From the NCBI GenBank assembly GCA_002729235.1, contig PBTY01000067.1:20665-68686 (forward strand): a DNA stretch of 48,022 bases, given 5' to 3'. Below the pieces are notes generated by a model. The model was not told the DNA's origin. It saw only the letters and a list, made by a program, of their open reading frames with translations, and did no database searches. This document shows, one piece after another, positions 32,537-48,022 of the stretch. A program made the position numbers and the translations under genes. This DNA comes from Rickettsiales bacterium. Lineage in GTDB: Bacteria; Bacteroidota; Bacteroidia; Cytophagales; Cyclobacteriaceae. How positions within the stretch are numbered: position 1 is the stretch's first letter; every line of letters begins with the position of its first letter.

Positions 32537-32706
32537 TTACCGAAACCTGGTATTCTCTTTTTTGGCGAATCATTCAGTATTCTCCTAGCATTCCTGTAAC
32601 TTAATTAAAGAGGAAATCCTGTGAACTAGTCCCTATGATTATCAGTTTGGAAGAAATCTCTGCACCAACCATAGGGGTACGATTCCTTGTGTTGTTATTA
32701 AAACAA

Positions 32707-33963
32707 ATGTTGAAAAAGCTAGGATTATATTGTCTTCTACTGAACCTTGCCATGTTTGTGAGCGCCGTTGCTTTGCCAAATGACGGACATGGACAGGGTA
32801 AGATTGGCTTTGTAATGCCTCCAAAAACCAAGAAAATAGAAGTTCCTTTTGAGATATACAACAACCTCATAGTCATCCCAGTCACTATTAATGACAAACT
32901 CACGCTACAATTTATTCTCGATACCGGTGCGGAATCTGCCATCCTTACTGAAAAGCTTTTTGGGGATCTGTTAGGACTAAATTATGTCCGACAGATCAAT
33001 GTTAATGCTCCAGGGGAAATGGATTCATTGGAGGCTTTTGTGGCAACAAACATTAAAATGTCATTACCTGGGGATATCTCTGGCGTGGGACTAAACATGT
33101 TGGTACTGAAAGAGGACTATTTGGAGTTGAATAAGAATCTTGGTGTAGAAGTATATGGGATTATCGGTTATGATGTATTCAGCCGATTTACCATCAATAT
33201 TGATTATGACAATAAACTACTGACCTTCTATTCTCCTGACACTTTCAAACCAAGAAAATCTCAAACAAGGATACCGATGAAGGTTATCAACACCAAGCCA
33301 TTCATAACAATGAGTGTACAGCAAAAGGAAAGAGTAGATACCGTTACTTTAATGGTAGACTCTGGTGCGAGCCATGCCATGCTACTGGATGTTGATAGTA
33401 TGAACCAAATCAACTTGCCCAAAGAAATACTTCCAACCGCTCTGGGTCAAGGATTAGCAGGAGAGATTCCCGGTTATGTCGGAAGAATGGGAGGATGTTC
33501 CGTGTTAGATTTTAATTTTAACCAACCCTTGGTTTCCATTCCGATCTCCGGAAGCTATATGAAGGCTATAAAGAGGGGCTCCAGACAAGGAACTGTAGGT
33601 GGAGATATTTTGTCTCGCTTCAACACCACATTTGATTACAATAGCAATGCTCTATACGTCACCAAAGGAGATCGATACAATGAAAAATTTGAATACAACA
33701 TGAGTGGTATGGTGCTTGGTGTATTCGGAAAAGGTCTCGATAGTATTCGAGTCGTTCGTGTGCTAGATGACTCTCCAGCAAAAGAGATTGGTATTGTACA
33801 AGGAGACGTTATAAAGTCCATAAACGGAAAAAATCTACATAACAGCAAGTTCACTGATGTCATCTCTATACTTAGGTCCCGAGAAGGTAAAAAATTACGA
33901 GTAGTTCTTTGGAGAGATGATAAAAAACTCAAACTCAAGCTACGCTTAAGACGAATGATATAA
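32707..33963 (+). CDS. Secreted double retropepsin-like aspartyl protease with C-terminal PDZ domain
   Basis: A 418-residue protein from the ATG at 32707, which gives a normal signal peptide (to about residue 22, FVSAVA); the in-frame ATG at 32635 would add 24 residues before it. Two aspartyl-protease domains each show the catalytic motif: DTGAES with D72 and DSGASH with D218. Further GGDILSRFNTTFDY and YGIIGYDVFSRFTINIDY are the usual partner strands. Residues about 330-418 are a PDZ domain (VRVLDDSPAKEIGIVQGDVIKSINGK). Two complete half-sites in one chain could form a pseudo-dimeric active site, unlike single-domain retropepsins that dimerise. It likely acts in the periplasm or outside the cell. 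The substrate is unknown. Confidence 0.85.
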   Translation: MLKKLGLYCLLLNLAMFVSAVALPNDGHGQGKIGFVMPPKTKKIEVPFEIYNNLIVIPVTINDKLTLQFILDTGAESAILTEKLFGDLLGLNYVRQINVNAPGEMDSLEAFVATNIKMSLPGDISGVGLNMLVLKEDYLELNKNLGVEVYGIIGYDVFSRFTINIDYDNKLLTFYSPDTFKPRKSQTRIPMKVINTKPFITMSVQQKERVDTVTLMVDSGASHAMLLDVDSMNQINLPKEILPTALGQGLAGEIPGYVGRMGGCSVLDFNFNQPLVSIPISGSYMKAIKRGSRQGTVGGDILSRFNTTFDYNSNALYVTKGDRYNEKFEYNMSGMVLGVFGKGLDSIRVVRVLDDSPAKEIGIVQGDVIKSINGKNLHNSKFTDVISILRSREGKKLRVVLWRDDKKLKLKLRLRRMI

Positions 33964-33984: not shown

Positions 33985-35109
33985 ATGTATGATGTTACTA
34001 TCGTTGGAGGCGGATTAGGAGGGCTAATCGCCAGTATTTTGCTTTCAGAAAAAGGACTCAACGTGCTCCTTCTGGAGAAAAAGCAATATCCTTTCCATCG
34101 GGTCTGCGGCGAGTACATATCCAATGAAGTTATCCCTTTCCTGGAATCACACGACATCTACCCTTCGGAGCTTGATCCGGTAGCCATTGATAAACTGTTG
34201 ATCAGCTCAGTTAGTGGAAGCTTTTTCAAAACACAACTAGATTTAGGAGGATTTGGGCTCAGTCGATATGCTTTTGATAATTGGCTGGCAACAAAAGCAC
34301 GTTCGCTAGGAGTAACCTTGATGGAAAAAACCACAGTGTCTTCCATTGATAAAAACAATCACTGGACAGTTTCCACCACTTCAGGTGAGCAATATCATTC
34401 TAATCTTGTCATTTCGGCACATGGAAAACGCGCCAAGTTAGATCAACAGCTCAAGCGAAACTTCCTTCAGAGCAGGTCTCCCTATGTAGGTGTCAAATAT
34501 CATATCACCAGCAATCTCGATAACCACACCATCGCCTTGCACAACTTCGTTGGTGGGTATTGTGGTGTAAGCAGAATAGAGTCTAATAAGTTTAACATCT
34601 GTTATTTAGCTCATAGAGATCAAATTAAAAAGTACAAACACCTACCCGAATTTGAACACCAAGTAGTTTTAAGAAACCCTCATCTTCGTGAAATTTGGGA
34701 CAATTCTGAATTTCTATTTGACAAGCCAGAAGTCATCAATGAGATCACTTTCAGGGCAAAGGAACCTGTGCTAAATGGTATCATCATGATTGGGGACTCC
34801 GCAGGAATGATCACTCCACTGGCGGGCAATGGCATGGCCATGGCTATTCGATCAGCTGCACTGGCATCTAAGGCTATTTTGGATCATTATCATCCAGATG
34901 GAATAAACGAAGATCAAATAACGTCTCAGTATCAAAATATCTGGCGAAAACACTATCAATTTCACCTTGCTAAAGGCAGAGTTATTCAAAAAGCGCTATT
35001 CAGTTCTTCACTATCCTCTTCATTTGCTGTTTTTATCGGACGTTTTTTCAAAAACATCACCAACTCAATTATTGAGCAAACACACGGCGAACCTTTCAGT
35101 AAAGTATAA
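33985..35109 (+). CDS. FAD-dependent oxidoreductase of the geranylgeranyl-reductase/aromatic-hydroxylase type
   Basis: A 374-residue flavoprotein. It has the N-terminal dinucleotide-binding motif VGGGLGGLIAS (about 7-17), RVCGEYIS (about 39-46) where substrate-facing residues lie in this family, and the second FAD motif GDSAGMITPLAGNG (about 269-282). Such enzymes either hydroxylate aromatic rings (as SrsC in the Streptomyces phenolic-lipid pathway) or reduce prenyl chains (geranylgeranyl reductases); both fit the neighbouring type III PKS and UbiA genes. It lies 21 bases after the protease gene, so it may share that promoter. Its 3' end overlaps the convergent UbiA gene by 14 bases. Confidence 0.82.
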   Translation: MYDVTIVGGGLGGLIASILLSEKGLNVLLLEKKQYPFHRVCGEYISNEVIPFLESHDIYPSELDPVAIDKLLISSVSGSFFKTQLDLGGFGLSRYAFDNWLATKARSLGVTLMEKTTVSSIDKNNHWTVSTTSGEQYHSNLVISAHGKRAKLDQQLKRNFLQSRSPYVGVKYHITSNLDNHTIALHNFVGGYCGVSRIESNKFNICYLAHRDQIKKYKHLPEFEHQVVLRNPHLREIWDNSEFLFDKPEVINEITFRAKEPVLNGIIMIGDSAGMITPLAGNGMAMAIRSAALASKAILDHYHPDGINEDQITSQYQNIWRKHYQFHLAKGRVIQKALFSSSLSSSFAVFIGRFFKNITNSIIEQTHGEPFSKV

Positions 35110-35950
35110 GCCAGGAAAAAAAGGCGTTAAGACAAAGAGCTGATAAGAGGTTTAGCCTCATGGTATTATCAAAATTGGCCAACTCTGAATCCTTTCTCAC
35201 TTTTAGGTACCACCAACCAAAAAACAACAACACTGGAGTAAGTGCCATTAAAAAACTTATTGCTGCTACCTCAGAAAAGTAGATCCAGAAAAACCCAACA
35301 AACATGGCAACTGAAATAGTGAAACATATAGCCGTGAAATGAAAGGTCCCCAAAACCCCTAAAATTAAACTTAGTGTAATATCCCCACGTTTACCATCCT
35401 CCTCGTGTTGGTAAACCTGTGTCATCGGATAAGACCCAAAGAGAAGAATAGTACTTAGCAAAGCGGCCCATTGGATATTTGTTTCAAATAACATATCCTG
35501 AAAACCCATTCCCACGAAAACCATCAGGAAAGTAAAATAACCTTGAAAGACTCCGGCAGTTAGCCATCCAAGAATTGGTCTCTTTTTAAGCCTAATTGCC
35601 GGATGGCTATACGCTTTACTAACCAACCCATAAACCAACAACATTAAGGCAAAATACCATGAAACGGTCCAGCCTATAGCTATGGCCAATAAATCCAAAA
35701 ACCAGGAAACAGAATGTAATTCTCTAGATACTTTGGGTGGTTGCCGAACCCCACCAATACTTCCTTCGTCTTTATCAAAGTAACTGTTGTATCCATTGCT
35801 GGCAGGATAGAGCATGAAGTGTAAAACCACAAAAACAAGCAGGAAGCTATTCCAATTGATCTCTGGCAAACATGCAATTGCAAACATGAATACAGGTAAC
35901 AGGAAAAAAGAAAATGGAAATCTTAAATGTATTAATGTGGACTTTTTCAT
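35096..35950 (-). CDS. UbiA-family prenyltransferase
   Basis: A 284-residue protein with about eight membrane segments. The first prenyl-diphosphate motif is SNGYNSYFDKDEGS (N52/N55, D59, D61; the NxxxDxD type) and the second is QHEEDGKRGD (181-190). Residues 105-125 contain the family-typical LVSKAYSHPAIRLKK. UbiA enzymes transfer isoprenoid chains to aromatic or other acceptors within the membrane. Its start is 58 bases from the divergent PKS gene and its end overlaps the flavoprotein gene, so it is embedded in the cluster. The acceptor could be the PKS product; chain length and acceptor are not determinable from sequence. Confidence 0.85.
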   Translation of the reverse strand: MKKSTLIHLRFPFSFFLLPVFMFAIACLPEINWNSFLLVFVVLHFMLYPASNGYNSYFDKDEGSIGGVRQPPKVSRELHSVSWFLDLLAIAIGWTVSWYFALMLLVYGLVSKAYSHPAIRLKKRPILGWLTAGVFQGYFTFLMVFVGMGFQDMLFETNIQWAALLSTILLFGSYPMTQVYQHEEDGKRGDITLSLILGVLGTFHFTAICFTISVAMFVGFFWIYFSEVAAISFLMALTPVLLFFGWWYLKVRKDSELANFDNTMRLNLLSALCLNAFFSWLILY

Positions 35951-36008
35951 TCAGTTGGTTAGAACCTGTTGCGAAAAGTTAGTTATAATTAAGTAGCTTC
36001 ATCCAAAT

Positions 36009-37106
36009 ATGTCATCATTCATTTCTTCAATTGGTACTGCCGTTCCGAAAAACAGGTTGAGTCAAAAAACGATAGGTGAATTTATGCTTCGCCACCTGGG
36101 AACCACACCTGAAATCAAAAGAACAATTGAGCTGATGTATCGTGCTAGTGGCATTTCTTACAGACATTCCGTTTTATCTGATTTTGGGAAAACTTTAGAT
36201 GCTTATAGTTTTTTTCCGAAGGACCAAAATCTTGATCCGTTTCCCACCGTTTCCAAGCGAATGCAATTATATAAAAGGGAAGCCCTCTTATTAGCTAAAC
36301 AAGCTGTTGATGATTGTTTACCCAAAGAACAATTATCTGACATCACTCACCTGATCACGGTTTCCTGCACCGGAATGTATGCGCCAGGCCTGGATATTGA
36401 ATTGATTGAAGAATTATCTTTAAAAACAAACATACAACGCACTGCAATTAACTTTATGGGGTGCTATGCCGCCTTCAATGCAATCAAAGTAGCCAATTCA
36501 ATTGTAAAAGCATCTCCTGACAGTAAGGTGCTCATAGTGGCAGTAGAGCTCTGCAGTATTCATTTGTTAAAAAACACCACAGAAGACGCCATTTTATCCA
36601 ATGCACTATTTGGTGATGGAGCTGCTGCAGTGATTATTGAAAACAACTCACCACGCTTAGGACTAGAACTATGTGGCTTCTTTGCAGATGTTGACACATC
36701 AGGAAAGGAGGCAATGGGTTGGAACATTGACGATTTTGGGTTTGATATGAAGCTGTCCAGTGAAGTACCGTTGGTTATCAAAAGAGGAATAAAGGAATTG
36801 ACTCATAAATTGCTTTCTCAATTTGATCTCAAGTCTGACCAAATCAAGCATTTTGCAATTCACCCAGGAGGTAGGAAAATCCTTAAAGTAATCGAAGAGG
36901 AATTGGGTATCTCTGAGGGGGAGAATAAAAATGCATACCATGTCCTTAAGAACTACGGCAACATGAGTTCGCCTACTGTACTTTTTGTTTTGAAAGAATT
37001 GATGCAGCAAATTGACGAGAAGAATCTAGGAGATAAGGTTTTAAGCTTTGCTTTTGGACCTGGGTTAACAATGGAAAGCATGCTACTCAAAATCTCTAAA
37101 GGATGA
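36009..37106 (+). CDS. Type III polyketide synthase (chalcone/alkylresorcinol synthase family)
   Basis: A 365-residue thiolase-fold enzyme with the complete type III PKS triad: C120 in TVSCTGMYAPGLD, H285 in FAIHPGGRKIL and N318 in NYGNMSSPTV. FGDGAAAVII (201-210) and the C-terminal FGPGLTMESMLL also fit. These homodimers extend an acyl-CoA starter with malonyl-CoA and cyclise it to resorcinols, pyrones or naphthols without a carrier protein. The starter cannot be deduced, but the srs-like neighbourhood suggests long acyl chains. It overlaps the methyltransferase gene by 4 bases (ATGA), so PKS and methylation are coupled. Confidence 0.92.
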   Translation: MSSFISSIGTAVPKNRLSQKTIGEFMLRHLGTTPEIKRTIELMYRASGISYRHSVLSDFGKTLDAYSFFPKDQNLDPFPTVSKRMQLYKREALLLAKQAVDDCLPKEQLSDITHLITVSCTGMYAPGLDIELIEELSLKTNIQRTAINFMGCYAAFNAIKVANSIVKASPDSKVLIVAVELCSIHLLKNTTEDAILSNALFGDGAAAVIIENNSPRLGLELCGFFADVDTSGKEAMGWNIDDFGFDMKLSSEVPLVIKRGIKELTHKLLSQFDLKSDQIKHFAIHPGGRKILKVIEEELGISEGENKNAYHVLKNYGNMSSPTVLFVLKELMQQIDEKNLGDKVLSFAFGPGLTMESMLLKISKG

Positions 37107-37789
37107 ATCTTGAGCGTCGATCTACCGAAATTGAAATAATGGATGACCTATCCATTTCTGGAAGTGTCGTTGCCCAAACATTGCGAGAACTCGATACCAT
37201 TAATCAACTGTTGGGTGGCAATCAAATTAGTCTATCAGCATTCAAAAAAGTACTAAAATCAAGTAAAATTGATTCGTTTGCAGATCTGGGTTGTGGTAGC
37301 GCAGATATTCTCAAAAGGATGAGTGGTTTGTGCCCTTCAGCACAGTACGTTGGATTTGACGCCAATCCCCATATTATTGATTATGCTGTTGATAATGTAG
37401 CGACACATAAGAATATTTCAGCTTTGGAAGAGAATATTTTTAGTTCATCATTTCAAAATAGATCATTTGACGTGATTCACTGTTGCCTGTTTCTTCATCA
37501 TTTTACCCATGATGAACTTGTGGACCTTTTTAAACAATTCAACAAACAAGCTAAAAAGGCGATCATCGTAAATGATCTGCATCGACATTTTTTAGCTTAT
37601 TATTCCATTAAATGGATCACCCGACTTTTTTCCAAATCATTTATGGTTCGAAATGATGCAGCAGTTTCGGTTGCAAGGGGGTTTAAGAAATCAGAATTAA
37701 CTAGCATTTTATCAGACGCTGGAATTTCCAATTACACCCTTAAATGGAAATGGGCCTTCAGATGGCAGTTAGTTATTACCTGTGATTAA
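37103..37789 (+). CDS. SAM-dependent methyltransferase (class I)
   Basis: A 228-residue class I methyltransferase with motif I ADLGCGSAD (60-68), a conserved acidic residue in VGFDANP (end of strand 2) and FDVIHCCLFLHHF, a post-I motif region. It starts on the last bases of the PKS gene (ATGA), which makes tailoring of the polyketide the natural role, comparable to SrsB. O-methylation is likely but C-methylation is not excluded. Its 3' end overlaps the convergent LRR gene by 14 bases. Confidence 0.87.
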   Translation: MNLERRSTEIEIMDDLSISGSVVAQTLRELDTINQLLGGNQISLSAFKKVLKSSKIDSFADLGCGSADILKRMSGLCPSAQYVGFDANPHIIDYAVDNVATHKNISALEENIFSSSFQNRSFDVIHCCLFLHHFTHDELVDLFKQFNKQAKKAIIVNDLHRHFLAYYSIKWITRLFSKSFMVRNDAAVSVARGFKKSELTSILSDAGISNYTLKWKWAFRWQLVITCD

Positions 37790-40700
37790 CCAGCACTTTG
37801 TACGTCACCATTGACTTACGACTACTTTCTTCGTCTTTGAAGCGCATCAGATACATGCCATCAGCCAGATCGTTTACATTGATTTGAATCTGATTAGGAC
37901 TCCAGGAGTTTACCTGTTCCGTTTTCAAAACATGTCCAGATAAATCCATTAATTGTATTTCGATGGACTCAGATAAGATTTGGTCGAATCGAATATTTAG
38001 GAAGTCGTCTGCAGGGTTTGGATATACTTCCAGACCTTCAAAATATTTTTTGAAAAATCCTAATTGATCTACTTTGACAACTGTTACCGCATTCTCAGTA
38101 ATTAAGATCTCTAACACAATGGTATTGTTTTCGGAACCTTCAGTTCCCACCTCAAACTCCACGTAAGAATCTTCATCCATTGGTATACCAGGATATTCCA
38201 CATTGAAACGATAAAGTCCAGCTACCAGGTCGGTGAACTCAAAACGTCCTTCGTCATCGGATTGTACATAAGCTACCAGCTCAAATTCACCATCTTCTTG
38301 ATTGTTTCGACCCTTAGGCACAAATCGACGGACTGAACAGCCCGCTCGCTTTACTTTTCTACGTGCATTGATACGACCTTCCGAAGTTTCATCCACAAAC
38401 TCAGACTCCACTGTACCAAGGATTTCACCTGGACCAAGCGGACCAACTCCTGGCTGAGAAACCAAGGTAATCGTTTCTTCAAGGTCACTTCTCAATTCAA
38501 TTGGAGTTGCCTCAGACCAAAGATCAGTGCTTGAGAAGTATGTTGGCAAATACAAATCCAGATCTCCTTCTACCAGTGCCAAATAATCCCCTAAAACAAC
38601 ATCGTCAAAGACATACCCTTCGGTAGTTCCTGCAACAGGAGCCAATGAATCATATGGTTCACCTTCAATAATTTTAAACAAATAGGCAGTTCCATCATTT
38701 ACGTCAGATCCAGATTGATTTACTGCATGGAATCGAATGGAACCTGATGCCCAAACGGTTTTTGGGAAACTCTCAAGTGTCAGGTCTGGAACCAAAGGAC
38801 TGGTAACTTGCAGGCGATAGGTTCCCATGTTCTCGTAGGCAAGACCTACTATTTCATAGGTATCACTAATAGCTCCAGGGATATCCTCCTCAACACCTGA
38901 TAGATTTTCATAAGACCACTGATAGCTGTTGTTAGTGCCATCCAGACTAGAGATAAACTCTACAGAGCTGCCAATTGCAAGCGTATCAATGAGTGAGGAT
39001 CCAAAATTTCTCTGGGGAGAATAGCTCAAAGAAGTTAAATCCACCAATGGCTCCAAATCACCGAAATCCAGATTATTTTCTGATAGATCCAAAGAAGTTA
39101 GGTTAGGCATTAAGTGAAAATCTGGAACTGAACTAATTCGGTTGCCTGATAAATCCAAGAACTCCAATTGTCGGATGTCCAAAATATCTTTCGGAAGTCT
39201 TCCCACCAAATTGTTATCACTTAGAGACACCTGAGTAACTCTGTTGTTTTCGATTGTCACGCCAAACCAATCTACTAAATCGGCATCAACCCAATTATCT
39301 GCACCTTCCCAGCCTGTACCATTCATCTTGGTATACATACTAGCCAAGGCAAGGGAATCCCTATGCAGCGAAGATACCTTCAAATATATTGGACGTGTGG
39401 TCAGGGTTAGCGCTGTTGCTAATGAAGATGATACCTCAGCAAAGTAATATCCTTCATCCTCAAAAGAGGTAATGGGCAAACCCAATACTGGATTAGTTCC
39501 CGTCAATTGTGAGGTTTCGTCTGCTGTTTTAAACCAGGTATAGGTATTTGCACTTCCTGTAAGGGTTCGATCTATTGAGTATGTAGTTCCAATTTCTTCA
39601 AAGGCTTCTAAAGTGTCTAGCACACGGCCTTGTGGTGCATAAGTAAAGTCAGCAACGCCAATATGTGGTTCGATATCACCAAACTGAATTTCATTATTCG
39701 AAATGTCTAAACTTTCTATTGCAGGTAAAGTGGAAAATCCTGCAACAGACTTTAGCTGATTACCTGATAAATCTATTGATGACAAACTATCTAAGTTTTC
39801 AAGACTTGTAATACTACCCACCAAATTATTAGTAGGCAATTGCAGCGAAACAGGTCGTTTATTAGCCACAATCACACCAAACCAGTCATCTAAGTCAGAC
39901 TCCATCCAACCAGTATGATCATTCCAGTTGTCTCCATCGGTCTGACTGTAAAGTGAGACCAAAGCTGTAGAGTCCGCCGCTCTAACAGACTCATCAAAGA
40001 AAGATCCGAAAGCCAGTCTTCCAACTCCATTAATTTGGGAACTGATTTGACCGGTTGATAAATCTCCTGACACAGAGAGCACCTCTTGTCCAACATAAGT
40101 AGAATTATCAGAAGAATAACCGATACGCAAGTCATCAATGGAAGTAGAGATTGTCTCCCCATTTACCGGCAGATTTACTTCGTAAGATGAAATTGAGCCA
40201 GAGGATAAACTGATATCCCAATATTTATCATTTGAGACGGCTAACAAGTTTTTACCAGCAATTCCGGCAGGATCTGATTCAACAGCCTCAACTGTCAATT
40301 GAGGGTTAGTGCCATCAATAGTAGAAATATCAACTGGAAGATAATTGGTGCTGGTGCCAATTGGAAATGTCATGTCTGAAGTCCCTGACACAGAAAGTGC
40401 TCCGACCACATATGCTGAGGATGTTGGGTTAGAAACAGTTACAGCTTCCTGCAAAGTCAGAAAGTCATTGGAAAGCAATCTGGAATTATTGAAATTCATC
40501 TGATCACTTACCTGAAGTGAAGAACTCAAAAAATGATCTCCAGATCCGCCAAGAGTCAAAATTGCTACAGTATCATCTAAATCAATTTCCTGCGAAGCGC
40601 CTAGCAGCACTAATTCTCCAGACCCATCATACGCCTGCTGATTAATTAGGTCTCCAGTTAATTGGATAGTCCCTTCATTATTAATGGTTCCTCCATTGGT

Positions 40701-40829
40701 CAAAGTGGGAATACCCGAAACGGTAGTACTTCCCGATACAGTGAATTGAGCACCATTATTTACCATTTGAGCCGAGAGCCCAATCGGTATAGAAAGGAAC
40801 CATATGATCAGAAATTTCAAACCTTTCAT
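37776..40829 (-). CDS. Secreted leucine-rich-repeat protein with T9SS sorting domain
   Basis: A 1017-residue protein with a signal peptide (1-20, ending IGLSAQ). The N-terminal region (about 22-290) is beta-rich with TNGGTINNEGTIQLTGDL-type sequence. Two LRR blocks follow (around 320-390 and 530-590), each with a following Ig-like region (YTWFKTADETSQLT, YQWSYENLS). A Cna-B-like domain is at about 690-790, and a conserved module with RKVKRAGCSVRRFVPKGR (about 815-832) leads to a sorting domain whose signature is EVYPNPADDFLNIRF. Expected to be exported by T9SS and surface-attached or released. It begins two bases after the fibre-like gene's stop, so they are cotranscribed. The substrate or ligand is unknown. 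Confidence 0.85.
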   Translation of the reverse strand: MKGLKFLIIWFLSIPIGLSAQMVNNGAQFTVSGSTTVSGIPTLTNGGTINNEGTIQLTGDLINQQAYDGSGELVLLGASQEIDLDDTVAILTLGGSGDHFLSSSLQVSDQMNFNNSRLLSNDFLTLQEAVTVSNPTSSAYVVGALSVSGTSDMTFPIGTSTNYLPVDISTIDGTNPQLTVEAVESDPAGIAGKNLLAVSNDKYWDISLSSGSISSYEVNLPVNGETISTSIDDLRIGYSSDNSTYVGQEVLSVSGDLSTGQISSQINGVGRLAFGSFFDESVRAADSTALVSLYSQTDGDNWNDHTGWMESDLDDWFGVIVANKRPVSLQLPTNNLVGSITSLENLDSLSSIDLSGNQLKSVAGFSTLPAIESLDISNNEIQFGDIEPHIGVADFTYAPQGRVLDTLEAFEEIGTTYSIDRTLTGSANTYTWFKTADETSQLTGTNPVLGLPITSFEDEGYYFAEVSSSLATALTLTTRPIYLKVSSLHRDSLALASMYTKMNGTGWEGADNWVDADLVDWFGVTIENNRVTQVSLSDNNLVGRLPKDILDIRQLEFLDLSGNRISSVPDFHLMPNLTSLDLSENNLDFGDLEPLVDLTSLSYSPQRNFGSSLIDTLAIGSSVEFISSLDGTNNSYQWSYENLSGVEEDIPGAISDTYEIVGLAYENMGTYRLQVTSPLVPDLTLESFPKTVWASGSIRFHAVNQSGSDVNDGTAYLFKIIEGEPYDSLAPVAGTTEGYVFDDVVLGDYLALVEGDLDLYLPTYFSSTDLWSEATPIELRSDLEETITLVSQPGVGPLGPGEILGTVESEFVDETSEGRINARRKVKRAGCSVRRFVPKGRNNQEDGEFELVAYVQSDDEGRFEFTDLVAGLYRFNVEYPGIPMDEDSYVEFEVGTEGSENNTIVLEILITENAVTVVKVDQLGFFKKYFEGLEVYPNPADDFLNIRFDQILSESIEIQLMDLSGHVLKTEQVNSWSPNQIQINVNDLADGMYLMRFKDEESSRKSMVTYKVLVNHR

Positions 40830-40831
40830 GA

Positions 40832-42838
40832 TCAGTTGTTGTAAGAATACTGGATGGTCACATTGTAAATCTCGGCATAACCAACACTGCTACTTGTTCC
40901 TCCTGAGCCTTGTATAAATATGTAATATATATATCTGCTATTATCTATTAACTCAATTCCTTTCCCTGCATCGACTTGCTCAACTCCATCTGCTTTAGTA
41001 GTCCCAATAGCTTCAGTGAATTGCGTACCAGTTGTAGCATTCAACAATACAAATTTAGCTCCCATACTTGCCGCTGCTCCATTTTTTCCCTGATCAAGAT
41101 AACCTGTAACTGCATCGACAGAAGCACCATTAGGCAGTCTAAATACAGCAGTAGCTGTGACAATGGAATTATTCTCAGCAGAAATAAGGAATCCCTTATT
41201 TCCTTCAGTGCCGAGCTCAATCGAATTGGTGGCTCCTTCAACTACAAAATCAGATGCTCTTAGTGTAAGGAACTCTGTTTTAGAAGATTGAAGAGAAGAT
41301 ACACTGGAGTTCAAACTGGAAATACTTGACGTATGACTATTGATGTCTGTTTGATGCTCAGCAAGAGCAGACTGTACATTGGTAGAAGTCATTCCATTTC
41401 CTGCCGTTACACTAACTTCAGTGGCAGTCTGATCATCTGTTCCAGTACCATCTTGTAATGAACTTAAATTAACACTATTGCCACTTTCAATGGTCAAAGT
41501 AGTTCCAGCGAAAGATAAATTCTGATCATCCGTACCAGTTCCATCTGATAATGAAGATAGATCCACACTTCCTCCATTTGTTAAATCAAGGTTGGTTCCG
41601 TCAAAAGATAAAGACTGAGCATCCGTATTATCCATGTATCCACTCAGGTCAAAAGTTGTTGCACTTCCAGATAATCCTAATACGTCTCTATCAAAAGTTA
41701 AATCCTGAATCTCATTGGATGCATCAGCATCAGCATCATCTCCAAGAGAAGAAAGATTCACAGTATTACCCCCAGAAAGTGTAAGACTAGAACCGTCAAA
41801 CGATAAAGACTGTGCATCCGTGAATACAGCCCCAGCAGGAACTGCGGTAAGTACAGTTAATCCATTGACTGTTTCAGCATCATCCACCGTGCTATTACCA
41901 TCTGTGTCGTAGACACTTTGCAGCATATCACCACCAGCAGAACCTGCATCAATATCTGCTTGAAGTTCTTGCAAAGCCGACTGCACATCGGTTGAAGTTA
42001 GATTACCAGAGGCCGTTACCACAACTTCACTAGCGGTTTGGTCATCTGTATCAGATATTCCATCCACATCTCCTTGAATTTCAGAAAGGGCGTCCTGAAC
42101 GTTGGTGGATGTTAAATTTCCTGAAGGTGTTACTGTAACCTCGGTGGCAGTCTGGTCATCAGTATCAGAAATGCCATCGATATCTCCTTGAAGTTCGGAA
42201 AGGGCGTCCTGAACATTGGTGGAAGCTAAATTTCCTGAAGATGTTACTGGTACTTCAGTGGCTGTTTGATCATCCGTACCTGTTCCGTCTTGAAGACTAG
42301 CCAGATCCACACTATTTCCACCGGTAATAGCTAATGTCGTACTGGTAAAGGAAAGCGTTTGGCTATCCGTATTGTCTAAGTAGGGAGATAAATCAATAGT
42401 CGTCGAACTGGAATTATTCGTGATGGTCAAATCATTTCCCGAAAGACTCAAATCTTGAATCTCATTTTGATCATCAAGATCTCCTGTATTTGAAATAGTA
42501 CCATCCACAATAGATAGGCCGGTACCAGCAGTTAATTGCTGTGCACTTAGTGAAGTCCAAACTGACCCAGACCAGTAGTAGAATACCTGCTCAGTACTAT
42601 CAAAGACTAATAGCCCTTGATCATCAGAAGCCAGATTGTCTGTAAAAGTTGTGGCCGTACGCTCAGTTGTAGACACCTGTGGAACTAGAAATCCCTGATT
42701 ACCATCAGGTGAAACCAGATGCAATACTGCATTGGAATTTGGTGTTTCAGTGCCTATTCCTACTGAGTTTTGTGCTGTTGCGGCAAGGCACAAAAAGGCA
42801 TAACCAACTGCGAATAAGAGGAGTGAACGGTGATTAAT
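40832..42838 (-). CDS. Secreted repeat-rich fibre-like protein, non-canonical start codon
   Basis: Read from 42838 (ATT) it has 668 residues and a signal peptide, HRSLLLFAVGYAFLCLAATAQ. In this frame a TAA stands at 42853 and no ATG or GTG occurs before the TTG at 42793, which would cut the signal in half; ATT (42838) or ATC (42844) is therefore the likely start. After the head (SVGIGTETPN) come short Asn/Asp/Ser/Thr-rich beta repeats with cores such as LSFDGTNLDLTNGGSVDLSSL, three 38-residue units beginning DDQTATEV, a short coiled coil (SISSLNSSVSSLQSSK) and a C-terminal beta domain. The pattern recalls trimeric fibres and phage tail fibres. No T9SS sorting domain is seen at the C-terminus. 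It is the first gene of an operon with the LRR protein. Confidence 0.75.
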   Translation of the reverse strand: MNHRSLLLFAVGYAFLCLAATAQNSVGIGTETPNSNAVLHLVSPDGNQGFLVPQVSTTERTATTFTDNLASDDQGLLVFDSTEQVFYYWSGSVWTSLSAQQLTAGTGLSIVDGTISNTGDLDDQNEIQDLSLSGNDLTITNNSSSTTIDLSPYLDNTDSQTLSFTSTTLAITGGNSVDLASLQDGTGTDDQTATEVPVTSSGNLASTNVQDALSELQGDIDGISDTDDQTATEVTVTPSGNLTSTNVQDALSEIQGDVDGISDTDDQTASEVVVTASGNLTSTDVQSALQELQADIDAGSAGGDMLQSVYDTDGNSTVDDAETVNGLTVLTAVPAGAVFTDAQSLSFDGSSLTLSGGNTVNLSSLGDDADADASNEIQDLTFDRDVLGLSGSATTFDLSGYMDNTDAQSLSFDGTNLDLTNGGSVDLSSLSDGTGTDDQNLSFAGTTLTIESGNSVNLSSLQDGTGTDDQTATEVSVTAGNGMTSTNVQSALAEHQTDINSHTSSISSLNSSVSSLQSSKTEFLTLRASDFVVEGATNSIELGTEGNKGFLISAENNSIVTATAVFRLPNGASVDAVTGYLDQGKNGAAASMGAKFVLLNATTGTQFTEAIGTTKADGVEQVDAGKGIELIDNSRYIYYIFIQGSGGTSSSVGYAEIYNVTIQYSYNN
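41933..42274 (-). repeat. Three 114-bp repeats (38 residues each) in the fibre-like gene
   Basis: Units begin at 42274, 42160 and 42046 on the minus strand. Each encodes DDQTA(T/S)EV, SGNL(A/T)ST(N/D)VQ and an ALSELQGDIDGISDT-like helix end. The third is the most divergent, and a partial fourth unit follows later in the gene (DDQTATEVSVTAGNGM). A nearly conserved DNA stretch recurs at exact 114-base spacing (AGGGCG at 42087 and 42201). Confidence 0.8.
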
Positions 42839-42865
42839 TTCGATGAGGTCTTAAAATTGGCAGAC

Positions 42866-42873
42866 CAAATGTA
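42866..42873 (-). promoter_or_regulatory. -7 promoter box upstream of the fibre-like gene
   Basis: TACATTTG on the minus strand fully matches TAnnTTTG, 27 bases upstream of the ATT codon at 42838. A transcript starting a few bases after it would begin near 42860, leaving no room for an ATG-started N-terminus. No clear -33 TTG at 19-21 bp is present. Confidence 0.5.
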
Positions 42874-42954
42874 ATAAATCACCGATTAACTATATGACTT
42901 TTTTTATATTATCTTTAAATATACCATTATTCGGGTAGGTAAACTCCCTAAATG

Positions 42955-45900
42955 TTAATGTCTTACTACGATTTTACGGGTTAAAGTCCTTTGATGGGCA
43001 TCTAAATCCACGATATTGAGGAAATACATTCCATCAGGAATCAAGACGGTCTCCCATTTGATGACACTCTCACCATCATAGATTTTTCGTAAATATTCTC
43101 GTCCCTTCACATCTACAATTCTGATCAAGTGGCCTTTTAACTCCTTTGCCAAATCAATGCTTACATAATCTGTAGCGGGATTTGGATATATCGAAACATC
43201 AATTGTGGACCAGGATGCCGAAAGCAAATTGATACGCTCCACGAAAATTCCATCTTCTGTAACAGTCGCTTGTAGTTCAATACTGTTGCTGGTAGATCCT
43301 TCCTCACCAATTTCAAATTCTACGTAAGAGTCTTCATCCATCGGAATCCCCGGATATTCGATGTTGAAGCGATAAAGTCCTGCTGGAATATTTTCGATCT
43401 TGAATTTACCTTCATCGTCAGATTCCACATATGCTATCAATTCAAATTCACCTTCTTCGTCTTGATCAGTTCGTCCTTTGGGTACAAACCTCCTGATAGA
43501 ACAACCAGCACGTTTTACTTTTCTTCTGGCATCAATTCTACCTTCATTTTCATCCGCATTGAAGTCTGACTCTACTGTACCCGCTAATGTTCCAGACCCA
43601 TCAGCTGGGGTTAAAGCTGGTGGTACCGTGAACATTGTCATCGTATCTAAAACATCTTGTCTTAAAGTCAAGGTATCTGCCTCTTCCCATAGGAATGTGT
43701 TTTTATAATAAGTAGGTAAGTAGGAATTGGGATCTGCACGAATAGCGATGAGATAATCTCCAAGTAGGAGGTTCTCAAAGATCACTTTACCGTTTGTAAA
43801 CACTAAACCTTCTGGATCAAATGAACCATTTTCCAATTTTGGTATCGAATCAAATGGCAATCCAGGTCCTTGATTTCTGAGCGCATAAGCTGATCCCTGA
43901 TCAAGCAAAATATCGTTATCTCCATACACGGTGAAGTCAAGGTTTGCTGTAGCCCACAATTGGACTGGCTCTGTATTTACCACCAGACCCGGCAACAGTG
44001 GATTCTGAATCTCCAATTGATATGTCGCCATATTATCAAAACCTAAAGCTGAAATCGTGAGAGAGGCAGTTGTTTCACCTTCTACATTTACAAAATTCTC
44101 TTCGAAAGTATTGTAGTAATCCGCTTTCCATTGATAGGTATTGTTAACTCCCCCAACGCCTATGTCAAAAGAATATGAACTCCCTTGTGGAATTGTCAGA
44201 CTATCTCGAGTTCCGATGTTTGCTTGTGGACTGTATTGAGTATCCTCAGTAAATAAATCTGCATTCAGCTCCAGATCTCCTAAATCTATTTGATTATCGG
44301 ACACATCCAGAGTGGTTAATTCCGTAAGTCCAGTTAATAGAGGAATCCCTTCAAATGAGTTACCAGACAATAAGAGGACTTTTAATGAATCCAGGCCTAA
44401 AACCTCTGTACCTAGTGAGCCTTCAATTGCTTTATCCGATAGATTAAGGACAGATATCCGGTCATTCTCCACTACAATCTCGGAACGCTCAGAAAGCGCA
44501 AGCGTATTCCAGTCTGTTGCCGTATTCTGCCAGGTCTCCCCTCCAAGTACATTATAAATGGTTGATACCACAATCGAATCAGATTCTAGCGGAGAGTACT
44601 GAGCCAAAACATTGGGAATGGCTAAACCATCATTAAGATTACCTTCTCCATCCTCTGCCGTGAGATAAATATCAAACAATGATTGTCTTACAAAAGCGGA
44701 GGCTACCTGCTCCCTAACCACATCTGGAGATTGGTCATAAGTAAAGTTTCCTGTTACAATCTGTCCCGTAAGAGCTTGTCCACCAGTGGCTGCATCTTTC
44801 ATTTGAGAGGCATTTGGTATGGCATTGCCATCTTCGAGGACAACCATATAGACAGTTCCTGCCTCATTGAGTGCATAATCAAGTGTTAGTTCATCACCAA
44901 TTATTGTGGCATTGTAGCTATCAAAAGAAGGTGCCAAATTTGGTTCAACAATACTGAAATCGGTATCTGTGGTGTCTGCAATACCATATGCGCTAACACT
45001 AGCTCTAAAATATGCCTGGGAAGAAACAGGCTGACTTACTGTCCACTGAAATGTGCTATCTGTATAAATAGATAAAGGAGCTTGGGCTATTAGATAAGGA
45101 AAAGTAGATCCACTGTCAAGGCTAAGCTCAAAAATGAGCACATCAGTTAATAATAAACCCTCCACTTCGAAGCTCACCGTTTGTGCAGATCCCTGCACAA
45201 TTTCTTCTCCTCCATTTGGAGTTAATAACGTGATGCTACGGTCTACCGATCCAATGGTGAAGACAGCATCTGAAGTATCTCGAAGATCCTGCGTAATATT
45301 TTCTACCATGATCAACGCTGTAGTAGATGTACTGTCTCCCACATCCCAGCTAAAGGTATTGCCTGGATAAGTGGTACCTGAGGTACCCTGAGAAAGGATA
45401 GAAAAATTAGAACCTCCGTCCATACTTAGACTTATCGCAATGTTATCTGATGATGCAAAAGCCACGTCGCTCCAGGATACGGTATAGTTAGTACCTGTTT
45501 CCACAAACTCTCCTCCATTTGGATCAACCACCGTTACAGACGGTATAATCTGTGCATTAATCGTAAAGAAATTGTCACTTTGATCAGATACGGATTGTGT
45601 CAGGTTCTCTACTTGTATTAATGCCTGTGTGGTAATAGAATCTGGAAGAACCCAGTCAAATACTCCAGAATACGTACTTGACAATCCTTTATCTATAAGA
45701 ATGAAATCTCCGTCAGACACAACAGAGAAGCTTATAGCGATGGAATCTGTCGGTTCGATATTTAGCTCATTCCAACTGACCTGAATGGTATCGGCCACAT
45801 TATAACTTTCAGTACCATTGGGTGATACTACTGTAATGGATGGAGAAGGATCTGCAAAAGCACCAGAAGAAATCCAATTTGCTGCGGAATTAGTCCCAGA

Positions 45901-48022
45901 TAATCCTGACCAACTTCCATCATTTGTGAAAATGCTTCTATCCGGTAAAATATCTGATCCAGCAGGTTGATCAAATCTATAATATGCATCCAAACCTGAT
46001 TCATTTCCGATCAATGTGGACAACATATGATCGTTAATTTCTGATTCTGTCAACGTGTAATTCCAAACCCTCAGCTCATCCAATGATCCGGAAAATTGGA
46101 AAGTACCATCATAATAAGTTCCTAATGTTACTCCTGAAGGAAGAGATCCTGTTACTGTTGGAATACTCCCTGTAAAAGTCAATACATCCTGAACTCCGTT
46201 AATGTAAATTTTCAGACGATCGGCATCTAAACTTTGGGTTCCATCAAAAGTCATTACAATATGATACCATTTACTTGATTCAAGAATCGTAGCAGTTCTG
46301 CCGTATGCCTCTGACCCATTCGAAACCACTCCTAATAAACTTCCACCAGCTCCATCTAATTGTAAATCCACACGCTGTGTACCAGAAGATCCACAAACAA
46401 AAAACACATCGAATCCTCCTAAAGCATCGAAGGAAGACCATAATTCAATAGAAAAATTCTGCGTGTTTTGAAATGTCGTAATTCCTTCAATATCAACTTT
46501 GTCATCAGTGCCATCAAAATTCAAAGCTCTTCCTGGAGCAATATATGCCCCAGCATACCTTGAATTACTGGGACTAGACAATGAGTTGTAAAGCGATACC
46601 ACCCTCCACCAGTATGCAGTATTACTAGAAAGAGTGGAGGTTGTATATGTTTCGGTATCTGCCGCTAAGACTGCACTGTAATTCGTCCAGGCCACATTAT
46701 CAGTAGAATACTGAACTCGAAAACCTGTTTCTGTAGAAGCCGTATCGGTCCATGTTAAGGTTATTGAATTACCAACATTTTCCACTGCGAATAAATCAAT
46801 TGGTGCTGCTGGAGGGAGTGCCACTGTAAAAACCGCGTCGCTACTATCTGCTTCACCAGAAGTGGTATTGGTTATTTTTATGAGACCCTCTGTGGTTTGA
46901 ACTGAAGGCACAGTCCATGAATAGGTATCATCTGCTACCTCAGAATAAGTACCAGAAAAAACATTGGAGTAAGACACACCGTTGTCCTCAGAAAAATCAA
47001 TGCTGATGTTATCACTTGTATTCCAGATAGATCCAAGGGTCCATCCCAGGTCTACTGTCTCTCCAGGTTGAAACAACTCACCACCATTTGGATAATACAG
47101 TGCAACCCCAGGACAGGTAGCACAGATGGTGAAGGATAAGGTGGTGTCTGAAACATTTCTTGATGTATTTCGGACAATCATTTTCACCGAGGTACTTTCA
47201 ATAGCTGGTACGGTCCAATTGTAGGTACTGCTATCTCCACTATTAGTTAAGGACGTATATCCTACCGAATTGATGTTTACGGATGTAGCACCACCATCCA
47301 ATGAATAGCGAAGATTAAAATTATCATTTATCCCTAAATCGGCATTCAGCCAGGTGATTGGTAGTGTAGCTCCTTGTGAAACAAATTGCCCATTAACAGG
47401 TGAAACTACATCAACTAATGGTTCGAAATACACACGAACTGCATTGCTCGTATCTGAAAGTAAACGCGTAGTATTTCTTACGATAAATTCAATATTCTGA
47501 TCCAGTGCCGAACCAAAATCTGGCATGGTGAAAGTATAAGTAGAAGAATCTCCACTATTAGTAAGTGACGTATAGCCGACTGAATTGATGTTCACCGAAG
47601 TAACACCTCCATCCAATGAATAGCGAAGATTGAAATTATCATTTATCCCTAAATCGGCATTCAGCCAGGTGATATCGATCGTTTCTGCAAACTTGCGCTC
47701 CTCCACTCCAGTGGGTGAGACAATCACCACATCTGGCTCGAAATATACACGGACTGCATTGCTTGTATCTGAGAGTAAACGGGTCGTATTTCTTACGATA
47801 AATTCAATGTTCTGATCCAGTACCGAACCAAAATCTGGCATGGTGAAAGTATAAGTAGAAGAATCTCCACTATTAGTAAGTGACGTATAACCGACTGAAT
47901 TGATATTGACTGAAGTAACTCCCCCATCCAATGAGTAGCGAAGATTGAAGTTATCATTAACCCCTAAATCAGCATTTAGCCAGGTGATATCAATTGTTTC
48001 CGCAAACTTGCGCTCCTCAACT
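42955..48022 (-). CDS. Giant multidomain T9SS surface protein, N-terminus beyond the window
   Basis: The frame is open across the right edge, so at least 1688 residues belong to one protein. In reading direction (high to low coordinate): tandem 105-residue beta-sandwich repeats (47.1-48.0 kb), Ser/Thr-rich Ig-like domains with a SWTVPS-type motif, a fibronectin-III domain (about 46.55-46.8 kb), a LamG/concanavalin-type domain (about 45.85-46.5 kb; FNFDGTDD-like start, SIELW, FSGSLDELRVWN), more SPNG-type Ig domains (44.95-45.85 kb), an LRR block (44.3-44.56 kb), an Ig domain, a Cna-B-like domain, the RKVKRAGCS module (43.47-43.55 kb) and a T9SS sorting domain (SIYPNPATDYVSIDL). Such proteins act as large surface adhesins or matrix components. 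The function of this one is unknown. Confidence 0.9.
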   Translation of the reverse strand, partial: VEERKFAETIDITWLNADLGVNDNFNLRYSLDGGVTSVNINSVGYTSLTNSGDSSTYTFTMPDFGSVLDQNIEFIVRNTTRLLSDTSNAVRVYFEPDVVIVSPTGVEERKFAETIDITWLNADLGINDNFNLRYSLDGGVTSVNINSVGYTSLTNSGDSSTYTFTMPDFGSALDQNIEFIVRNTTRLLSDTSNAVRVYFEPLVDVVSPVNGQFVSQGATLPITWLNADLGINDNFNLRYSLDGGATSVNINSVGYTSLTNSGDSSTYNWTVPAIESTSVKMIVRNTSRNVSDTTLSFTICATCPGVALYYPNGGELFQPGETVDLGWTLGSIWNTSDNISIDFSEDNGVSYSNVFSGTYSEVADDTYSWTVPSVQTTEGLIKITNTTSGEADSSDAVFTVALPPAAPIDLFAVENVGNSITLTWTDTASTETGFRVQYSTDNVAWTNYSAVLAADTETYTTSTLSSNTAYWWRVVSLYNSLSSPSNSRYAGAYIAPGRALNFDGTDDKVDIEGITTFQNTQNFSIELWSSFDALGGFDVFFVCGSSGTQRVDLQLDGAGGSLLGVVSNGSEAYGRTATILESSKWYHIVMTFDGTQSLDADRLKIYINGVQDVLTFTGSIPTVTGSLPSGVTLGTYYDGTFQFSGSLDELRVWNYTLTESEINDHMLSTLIGNESGLDAYYRFDQPAGSDILPDRSIFTNDGSWSGLSGTNSAANWISSGAFADPSPSITVVSPNGTESYNVADTIQVSWNELNIEPTDSIAISFSVVSDGDFILIDKGLSSTYSGVFDWVLPDSITTQALIQVENLTQSVSDQSDNFFTINAQIIPSVTVVDPNGGEFVETGTNYTVSWSDVAFASSDNIAISLSMDGGSNFSILSQGTSGTTYPGNTFSWDVGDSTSTTALIMVENITQDLRDTSDAVFTIGSVDRSITLLTPNGGEEIVQGSAQTVSFEVEGLLLTDVLIFELSLDSGSTFPYLIAQAPLSIYTDSTFQWTVSQPVSSQAYFRASVSAYGIADTTDTDFSIVEPNLAPSFDSYNATIIGDELTLDYALNEAGTVYMVVLEDGNAIPNASQMKDAATGGQALTGQIVTGNFTYDQSPDVVREQVASAFVRQSLFDIYLTAEDGEGNLNDGLAIPNVLAQYSPLESDSIVVSTIYNVLGGETWQNTATDWNTLALSERSEIVVENDRISVLNLSDKAIEGSLGTEVLGLDSLKVLLLSGNSFEGIPLLTGLTELTTLDVSDNQIDLGDLELNADLFTEDTQYSPQANIGTRDSLTIPQGSSYSFDIGVGGVNNTYQWKADYYNTFEENFVNVEGETTASLTISALGFDNMATYQLEIQNPLLPGLVVNTEPVQLWATANLDFTVYGDNDILLDQGSAYALRNQGPGLPFDSIPKLENGSFDPEGLVFTNGKVIFENLLLGDYLIAIRADPNSYLPTYYKNTFLWEEADTLTLRQDVLDTMTMFTVPPALTPADGSGTLAGTVESDFNADENEGRIDARRKVKRAGCSIRRFVPKGRTDQDEEGEFELIAYVESDDEGKFKIENIPAGLYRFNIEYPGIPMDEDSYVEFEIGEEGSTSNSIELQATVTEDGIFVERINLLSASWSTIDVSIYPNPATDYVSIDLAKELKGHLIRIVDVKGREYLRKIYDGESVIKWETVLIPDGMYFLNIVDLDAHQRTLTRKIVVRH
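43471..43545 (-). other. Segment coding the shared RKVKRAGCS module (giant protein copy)
   Basis: Codes a basic, cysteine-containing motif RKVKRAGCSIRRFVPKGR, followed by a beta domain (GEFELIAYVESDDEGKF). The LRR protein's copy is at about 38309-38385 and has nearly the same sequence (RKVKRAGCSVRRFVPKGR). The motif lies between the Cna-B-like part and the beta domain preceding the sorting domain in both proteins. Confidence 0.8.
47120..48022 (-). repeat. Near-identical 315-bp tandem repeats in the giant surface gene
   Basis: A reference sequence, tagcgaagat on the plus strand, occurs at 47306, 47621 and 47936, exactly 315 bases apart (105 residues). The copies at 47.4-47.7 and 47.7-48.0 kb are nearly identical in DNA, and the one nearest 47.1 kb diverges at its 3' coding end. 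The array runs off the window, so the copy number is unknown. Confidence 0.92.

Follow-up and report, generated by a model that had tools for sequence, protein, structure and literature searches.

Four adjoining genes were analysed in a 48,022-nt stretch of DNA from a Rickettsiales bacterium (Cyclobacteriaceae in GTDB; GCA_002729235.1, contig PBTY01000067.1, positions 20,665-68,686 of the forward strand), the whole of which is called the window here. They encode a flavin adenine dinucleotide (FAD)-dependent oxidoreductase, a UbiA-fold protein, a type III polyketide synthase (PKS) and a methyltransferase (MT). The four genes tend to be inherited together in Bacteroidota, and the UbiA-fold protein belongs to a subfamily whose metal motif is altered and which, among the genomes sampled, occurs only alongside a type III PKS. 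Together the enzymes may make a prenylated, methylated and ring-hydroxylated polyketide phenol or quinone lipid, a tentative reading that falls a little short of an even chance. With the co-inheritance data, one orphan type III PKS cluster becomes a well-delimited group of enzymes whose class of product can be tested.

The gene set and its co-inheritance

The features of the locus, in window coordinates, are as follows.

33985-35109, + strand: FAD-dependent oxidoreductase, 374 aa, of the hydroxylase/geranylgeranyl reductase/halogenase superfamily; predicted ring hydroxylase (Pfam, NCBIfam, structure model, Foldseek)
35096-35950, - strand: UbiA-fold protein, 284 aa, whose motifs are the variants NSxxDxDxG and QHxxDxxxGD; the ends of this gene and of the FAD gene overlap
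35408-35410, - strand: Gln181 codon of UbiA, at the site where DxxxD would begin with Asp (alignments)
35951-36008, no strand: divergent intergenic stretch of 58 bases between the UbiA start and the PKS start
36009-37106, + strand: type III PKS, 365 aa (PF00195, PF02797), with the triad Cys152-His285-Asn318 and with Trp238 at the ArsB Trp281 position
36462-36464, + strand: codon of the catalytic Cys152 of the PKS
36720-36722, + strand: Trp238 codon of the PKS (ArsB W281/ArsC G284 column; alignment)
37103-37789, + strand: class I S-adenosylmethionine-dependent MT, 228 aa (Methyltransf_25); the MT start overlaps the PKS stop

All four proteins matched the Pfam families expected for them, and the positions and order of the genes (FAD, UbiA, PKS, MT) agreed with an initial annotation of this DNA. 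The coupling of PKS and MT claimed there was also present, the PKS stop overlapping the MT start in ATGA. The UbiA gene lies on the opposite strand, convergent with the FAD gene and divergent from the PKS gene across the 58 bases, and the four genes are therefore not a single transcript in the window.

An evenly drawn sample of 395 Bacteroidota genomes was searched with each of the four proteins, using E cut-offs of 1e-20 for the PKS and UbiA, 1e-60 for the FAD protein and 1e-30 for the MT. The PKS was found in 179 genomes, the MT in 140, the FAD protein in 82 and UbiA in 60, the last comprising 26 close matches (at least 286 bits) and 34 distant ones (118-150 bits), all 34 in family f24. A PKS accompanied UbiA in 60/60 genomes, the FAD protein in 82/82 and the MT in 139/140, with genome G120 carrying the MT alone. 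The Fisher values against the PKS, uncorrected for shared ancestry, were 3.6e-24 for UbiA, 1.2e-34 for FAD and 2.2e-68 for MT. Within single families, PKS and UbiA were present or absent together: family f5 had six genomes with both and at least four with neither, and family f8 two with both and at least three with neither. Family f3 included two genomes with a window-type PKS and UbiA, and one (G249) that lacks UbiA and whose PKS is more distant.

The genes also stayed close to one another. In the 26 close-UbiA genomes, the FAD protein was present in all and the MT in 24; UbiA lay less than 1 kb from the PKS in 20, and the FAD gene lay within 3 kb of it in 21 and away from it in five. The MT was within 1 kb of the PKS in 23 of the 24 genomes that had it, and all four genes stood together in 16/26. 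In the six f5 cluster genomes, UbiA, PKS, MT and FAD were co-directional. A set of named Bacteroidota genomes, most of them picked because at least one gene was not beside the PKS, contained the FAD protein in 25/25, UbiA in 25/26 and the MT in 13/25. The grouping of PKS, UbiA, flavoprotein and MT is not due to chance. Failure of the genes to be conserved together had been named in the initial annotation as grounds for abandoning its proposal; co-occurrence and synteny were strong, though the MT was absent in part of the genomes.

The encoded enzymes

The UbiA-fold protein, so assigned from its predicted fold, had been credited with both aspartate motifs, and this could not be upheld. Motif I reads N55-S-Y-F-D59-K-D61-E-G63 rather than the canonical NDxxDxxxD, and motif II reads Q181-H-E-E-D185-G-K-R-G-D190 rather than DxxxD. 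The pattern is thus NSxxDxDxG with QxxxD, and Gln replaced the first Asp of motif II in 33/33 distinct proteins, the window's included, drawn from two alignments of 20 and 30 rows. N55, D59, D61, Q181 and D185 were invariant in these 33, and the same pattern was seen in two distant homologues read directly. A wider tally of Gln in 63 rows is excluded here, since for 30 of its loci the search pattern already demanded Gln and some genes recurred. The last Asp site of motif I varied among relatives in the 20-row alignment, being mostly Gly, with Asp in loci L037 and L109. Because of these motifs the protein is termed UbiA-fold here and not a canonical prenyltransferase. Five other UbiA-family matches were found in the same genome; three had a DxxxD second motif, and the pattern found none in the remaining two, one of which is a fragment.

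Relative to the UbiA superfamily (AfUbiA, 4TQ3/4TQ4; chlorophyll synthase; digeranylgeranylglyceryl phosphate synthase), the window protein differs in having Gly as the last residue of motif I and Gln as the first of motif II, where the aligned chlorophyll synthase has Ser. Residues R10, N55, D59, D185, Y114-S115 and K122 are apparent counterparts of AfUbiA R22, N68, D72, D202, Y139-S140 and K146 (PMC4106721). They were matched by order, and for Tyr-Ser and Lys the alignment with chlorophyll synthase gives the same pairing. In one f2 genome (locus L166, 1486-3387), an unlinked UbiA copy adjoins a 303-aa gene that appears methyltransferase-like by eye, possibly another tailoring enzyme.

The PKS contains the N- and C-terminal chalcone/stilbene synthase domains (PF00195, 100.6 bits; PF02797, 80.5 bits) and an intact catalytic triad. 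The triad had been given initially as C120-H285-N318, of which His285 and Asn318 were borne out. The nucleophile is Cys152, within NFMGC, which aligned with position 175 of PKS18, the catalytic Cys of that enzyme (PMC6274091), and Cys120 was ruled out by this alignment. Cys120 is a second conserved cysteine, present in 33/33 clade rows; tetrahydroxynaphthalene synthase (THNS) and ArsC also have Cys in this column and PKS18 has Ser. Of the 80 loci retained from the collection of genomes, the one with the closest PKS was from Marinoscillum pacificum (72% identity). The long-chain enzyme PKS18 was among the best solved-structure matches, ranking second, and the top NCBIfam match was DpgA, at 170.7 bits against a cut-off of 425. 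A second PF00195 match in the same genome scored 22.1 bits, under the cut-off of 27.

Trp238 aligned with ArsC Gly284; the G284W variant, which has a solved structure, has MTW in place of the wild-type MTG. A review reports that the residue at this position (ArsB W281/ArsC G284) decides which of the two products, resorcinol or pyrone, ArsB and ArsC make, the swap between the enzymes showing that Trp favours resorcinol (PMC6274091). Trp occupied the column in 33/33 clade rows, in 10/10 rows of the f24-type group, which takes in Deinococcus, and in 7/7 of the f35-type group, with Roseomonas and Sphingobium among its members; elsewhere it held Phe (5/5 f7-type rows), Tyr (THNS) or Leu (PKS18). 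Trp238 is consistent with resorcinol formation, short of proof, and is a weak indicator because the alkylpyrone synthase PKS11 has the same Trp. Similarly, Cys182 matches the acyl-tunnel Cys205 of PKS18 and is weak evidence for a long chain because THNS carries Cys at the same site.

A 64-row tree, with ArsC as root and 15 rows fewer than an earlier 79-row tree that had long branches, placed the window PKS within a 31-row clade of 27 Bacteroidota and four gammaproteobacterial enzymes (bootstrap 89, under the 95 mark; Shimodaira-Hasegawa-like approximate likelihood ratio test 93). Steely1 and PKS18 had long branches and their placement is unsure. THNS, PKS11 and the f7-type cluster enzymes formed a separate 10-row clade (100/99). 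The grouping with THNS (RppA) that would have spoken against the initial annotation was thereby ruled out.

The flavoprotein matched the Pfam families DAO (46.6 bits) and FAD_binding_3 (44.1 bits, over profile positions 2-322 of 349). Its best NCBIfam match was TIGR02032 (geranylgeranyl reductase) at 109.3 bits, under the family cut-off of 158.8, and it was below the curated cut-off of every family among the matches listed (25 of 77). Its structure model (mean predicted local distance difference test score 88.7) gave mixed Foldseek matches to halogenases, geranylgeranyl reductase, 3-hydroxybenzoate 6-hydroxylase and UbiH, in which the first two were not separable from the hydroxylases. Because the listed scores lie below the NCBIfam cut-offs and Foldseek mixes the classes, the function of the flavoprotein cannot be read from its sequence or fold. 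In nine sampled loci of families f24, f22, f30 and f43, its place after the PKS and MT was taken by a different FAD monooxygenase, one representative of which scored 200 bits with FAD_binding_3, and the window-type flavoprotein was missing from every one of the 34 f24 genomes that carry a UbiA homologue. This replacement suggests ring hydroxylation as the role shared by the two proteins. The MT scored 53 bits with Methyltransf_25 and 114 bits with NF004851, under a cut-off of 243.

Candidate pathway and alternatives

In the pathway proposed, the type III PKS would extend an acyl starter with malonyl-CoA and close a resorcinol-type ring, which the flavoprotein would hydroxylate to a hydroquinone. 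The MT would place a methyl group on a ring hydroxyl or a ring carbon, and the UbiA-fold enzyme, in the membrane, would join an isoprenoid chain to the ring. Each of these reactions is inferred, as are the sequence of steps, the starter, the donor of the prenyl group and any membrane or redox role. The product may be a redox carrier, a role with a published precedent in the polyketide-quinone operon (PMC9927152), or else an antioxidant or a membrane lipid. A more specific version is decidedly unlikely, namely that Cytophagales and related Bacteroidota possess an isoprenoid quinone whose ring derives from a type III PKS and not from shikimate, prenylated by a QxxxD UbiA and acting as a second redox carrier beside menaquinone. 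A prenylated polyketide quinol, if that is the product, would give Bacteroidota a redox lipid in the membrane that is not one of the quinones made from shikimate.

Several observations weigh against the proposed pathway. The Fisher values carry no correction for shared ancestry, and the MT was absent in 2/26 close-UbiA and 12/25 named genomes. Both MT and FAD protein were lacking in 38/179 PKS genomes; in 36 of these the PKS match was 1.0e-52 or weaker, G119 and G183 being the exceptions. Close UbiA was missing from 56/82 FAD genomes, and the f24 UbiA homologue was never near the PKS, being on another contig in 32/34 genomes and at a distance of over 600 kb in the other two, G065 and G191. The Trp at the W238 column is not decisive, as it occurs also in PKS11 and Steely1, and the PKS tree was built without the characterised SrsA, PkqA and HidC sequences. 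Finally, the motif change in UbiA could alter or abolish prenyl transfer.

The same core pathway could operate with UbiA not acting on the ring, so that the product would be a methylated alkylhydroquinone without a prenyl group, of the Srs, polyketide-quinone or hierridin type, and UbiA a separate co-selected step. The 56 FAD genomes without close UbiA, together with 116/140 such MT genomes, indicate that PKS, MT and FAD seem to work without it; the homologue in the 34 f24 genomes is distant as well as unlinked, and the Asp-to-Gln change could signal other chemistry. As UbiA was never found without a PKS in the sample, lay next to it in most close-UbiA genomes and ran in the same direction in the six from f5, this explanation is considered fairly unlikely. 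It is unlikely, too, that the PKS uses a short starter and makes only a small ring, in which case the prenyl chain would be the whole lipid tail and the product would resemble ubiquinone or plastoquinone with a polyketide head. If a long alkyl chain were already present, there would seem to be little need for a linked prenyltransferase, and the NCBIfam family that the PKS matched best, though under its cut-off, was DpgA. The DpgA product is built from malonyl-CoA alone. However, DpgA functions without a catalytic cysteine (PMC6274091) and the window PKS has one; the high rank of the long-chain PKS18 and, weakly, Cys182 also argue against a short starter.

The PKS product might instead be an alkylpyrone, since PKS18, the second solved-structure match, makes pyrones (PMC6274091) and the pyrone synthase PKS11 shares the Trp. 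The residue is nevertheless Gly in ArsC and Leu in PKS18, and a co-inherited flavin oxygenase and MT would better fit a phenol, which makes a pyrone very unlikely. Least weight is given to a prenyl reductase role for the flavoprotein, in which it would saturate the isoprenoid chain attached by UbiA, like the pairing of chlorophyll synthase with geranylgeranyl reductase. Such a role would agree with geranylgeranyl reductase as best NCBIfam match and with the UbiA profile, for which the only solved structures found under E 0.001 were two chlorophyll synthase entries (5e-4). The reductase score is, however, below its cut-off, and the flavoprotein tracks the PKS and MT (80/82 FAD genomes have the MT) and not UbiA.

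Neighbouring genes, related clusters and known systems

An aspartyl protease with a PDZ domain (32635-33963) ends 21 bases ahead of the FAD gene; its family was seen again in 10 loci, within five genes of the PKS in nine. Two large proteins encoded at 37776-47931 carry sorting tails for type IX secretion together with leucine-rich repeat or laminin G domains. Tandem repeats of 114 bases (42039-42278) and 315 bases (47233-48022) were also present.

A second cluster type was found in f7 and f4 genomes (L133, 5220-10537; L131, L132 and L149; L115 in part), with the order FAD-MT-PKS and a PKS that groups apart from that of the window in the 64-row tree. In L133 these genes are followed by a FabA-like dehydratase, a ketosynthase, an acyl carrier protein and a phosphopantetheinyl transferase, and L115 (f3) combines them with a short-chain dehydrogenase and a ketosynthase. 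The four gammaproteobacterial PKSs (L183, 6001-7086; L094, L103 and L106, each from 10001) nest in the Bacteroidota clade with 100/100 for the four, and one of them is on a Psychrobacter plasmid. UbiA was not found in the three genomes of this group searched. These enzymes likely represent transfer out of Bacteroidota. PKS, MT and FAD genes occur together on Deinococcus, Roseomonas and Psychrobacter plasmids, with the Psychrobacter PKS on the other strand; the Deinococcus radiodurans plasmid operon (L184, 6001-8960; PKS-MT-FAD) has a PKS that groups with Bacteroidota f24/f30 enzymes (90/78 with L140). No plasmid match was obtained for P0003 at 1e-6.

Type III PKS clusters without a close known relative have been reported by antiSMASH in Reichenbachiella (PMC10752948) and Fulvivirga (PMC12565237). 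A UbiA gene is described near an actinobacterial alkylresorcinol locus (PMC7587189), and the available text on hidABC-type clusters places a prenyltransferase in one Raphidiopsis cluster only (PMC8086630). In the open-licence literature, as partly surveyed, no published account was found of a UbiA linked to a type III PKS in Bacteroidota.

Operons of PKS, MT and oxidoreductase are known from actinobacteria, cyanobacteria and planctomycetes (PMC9927152, PMC8086630, PMC10896814) and yield alkylresorcinols or alkylquinones (PMC10896814, PMC9927152). The window shares with them a type III PKS, MT and flavin oxidoreductase encoded together and, as a weak likeness also shared by PKS11, a Trp at the ArsB-281 column (W238; 33/33 clade rows). 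The analogy drawn initially with srsABC of Streptomyces griseus, in which PKS, MT and hydroxylase form one operon for phenolic lipids (PMC9927152), holds in its pathway logic; a closer published match is the pkqABC-type polyketide-quinone operon of Mycobacterium smegmatis and Streptomyces sp. MNU77. The latter is alike in its type III PKS, MT, oxidoreductase and Trp at the ArsB-281 position, is tied to polyketide quinones in Streptomyces spores and, reportedly, in M. smegmatis, and has been proposed to supply an alternate electron carrier (PMC9927152). It differs in being actinobacterial and of three genes; the available part of that account describes no UbiA for it or for srsABC, whereas the window has a co-inherited one, both systems being compared by description and not by sequence. 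The planctomycete and cyanobacterial hidABC-type operons likewise encode an MT, an oxidoreductase and a type III PKS, but in a gene order that differs from the window's (PMC10896814, PMC8086630), and alkylresorcinols were shown by heterologous expression in one study (PMC10896814). By this analogy, the locus is best read as a probable Bacteroidota version of the Srs/polyketide-quinone/hierridin pathway, extended by a dedicated UbiA-fold enzyme. PKS-MT-oxidoreductase operons were already known, also for electron carriers, and the new part is the co-inherited UbiA subfamily.

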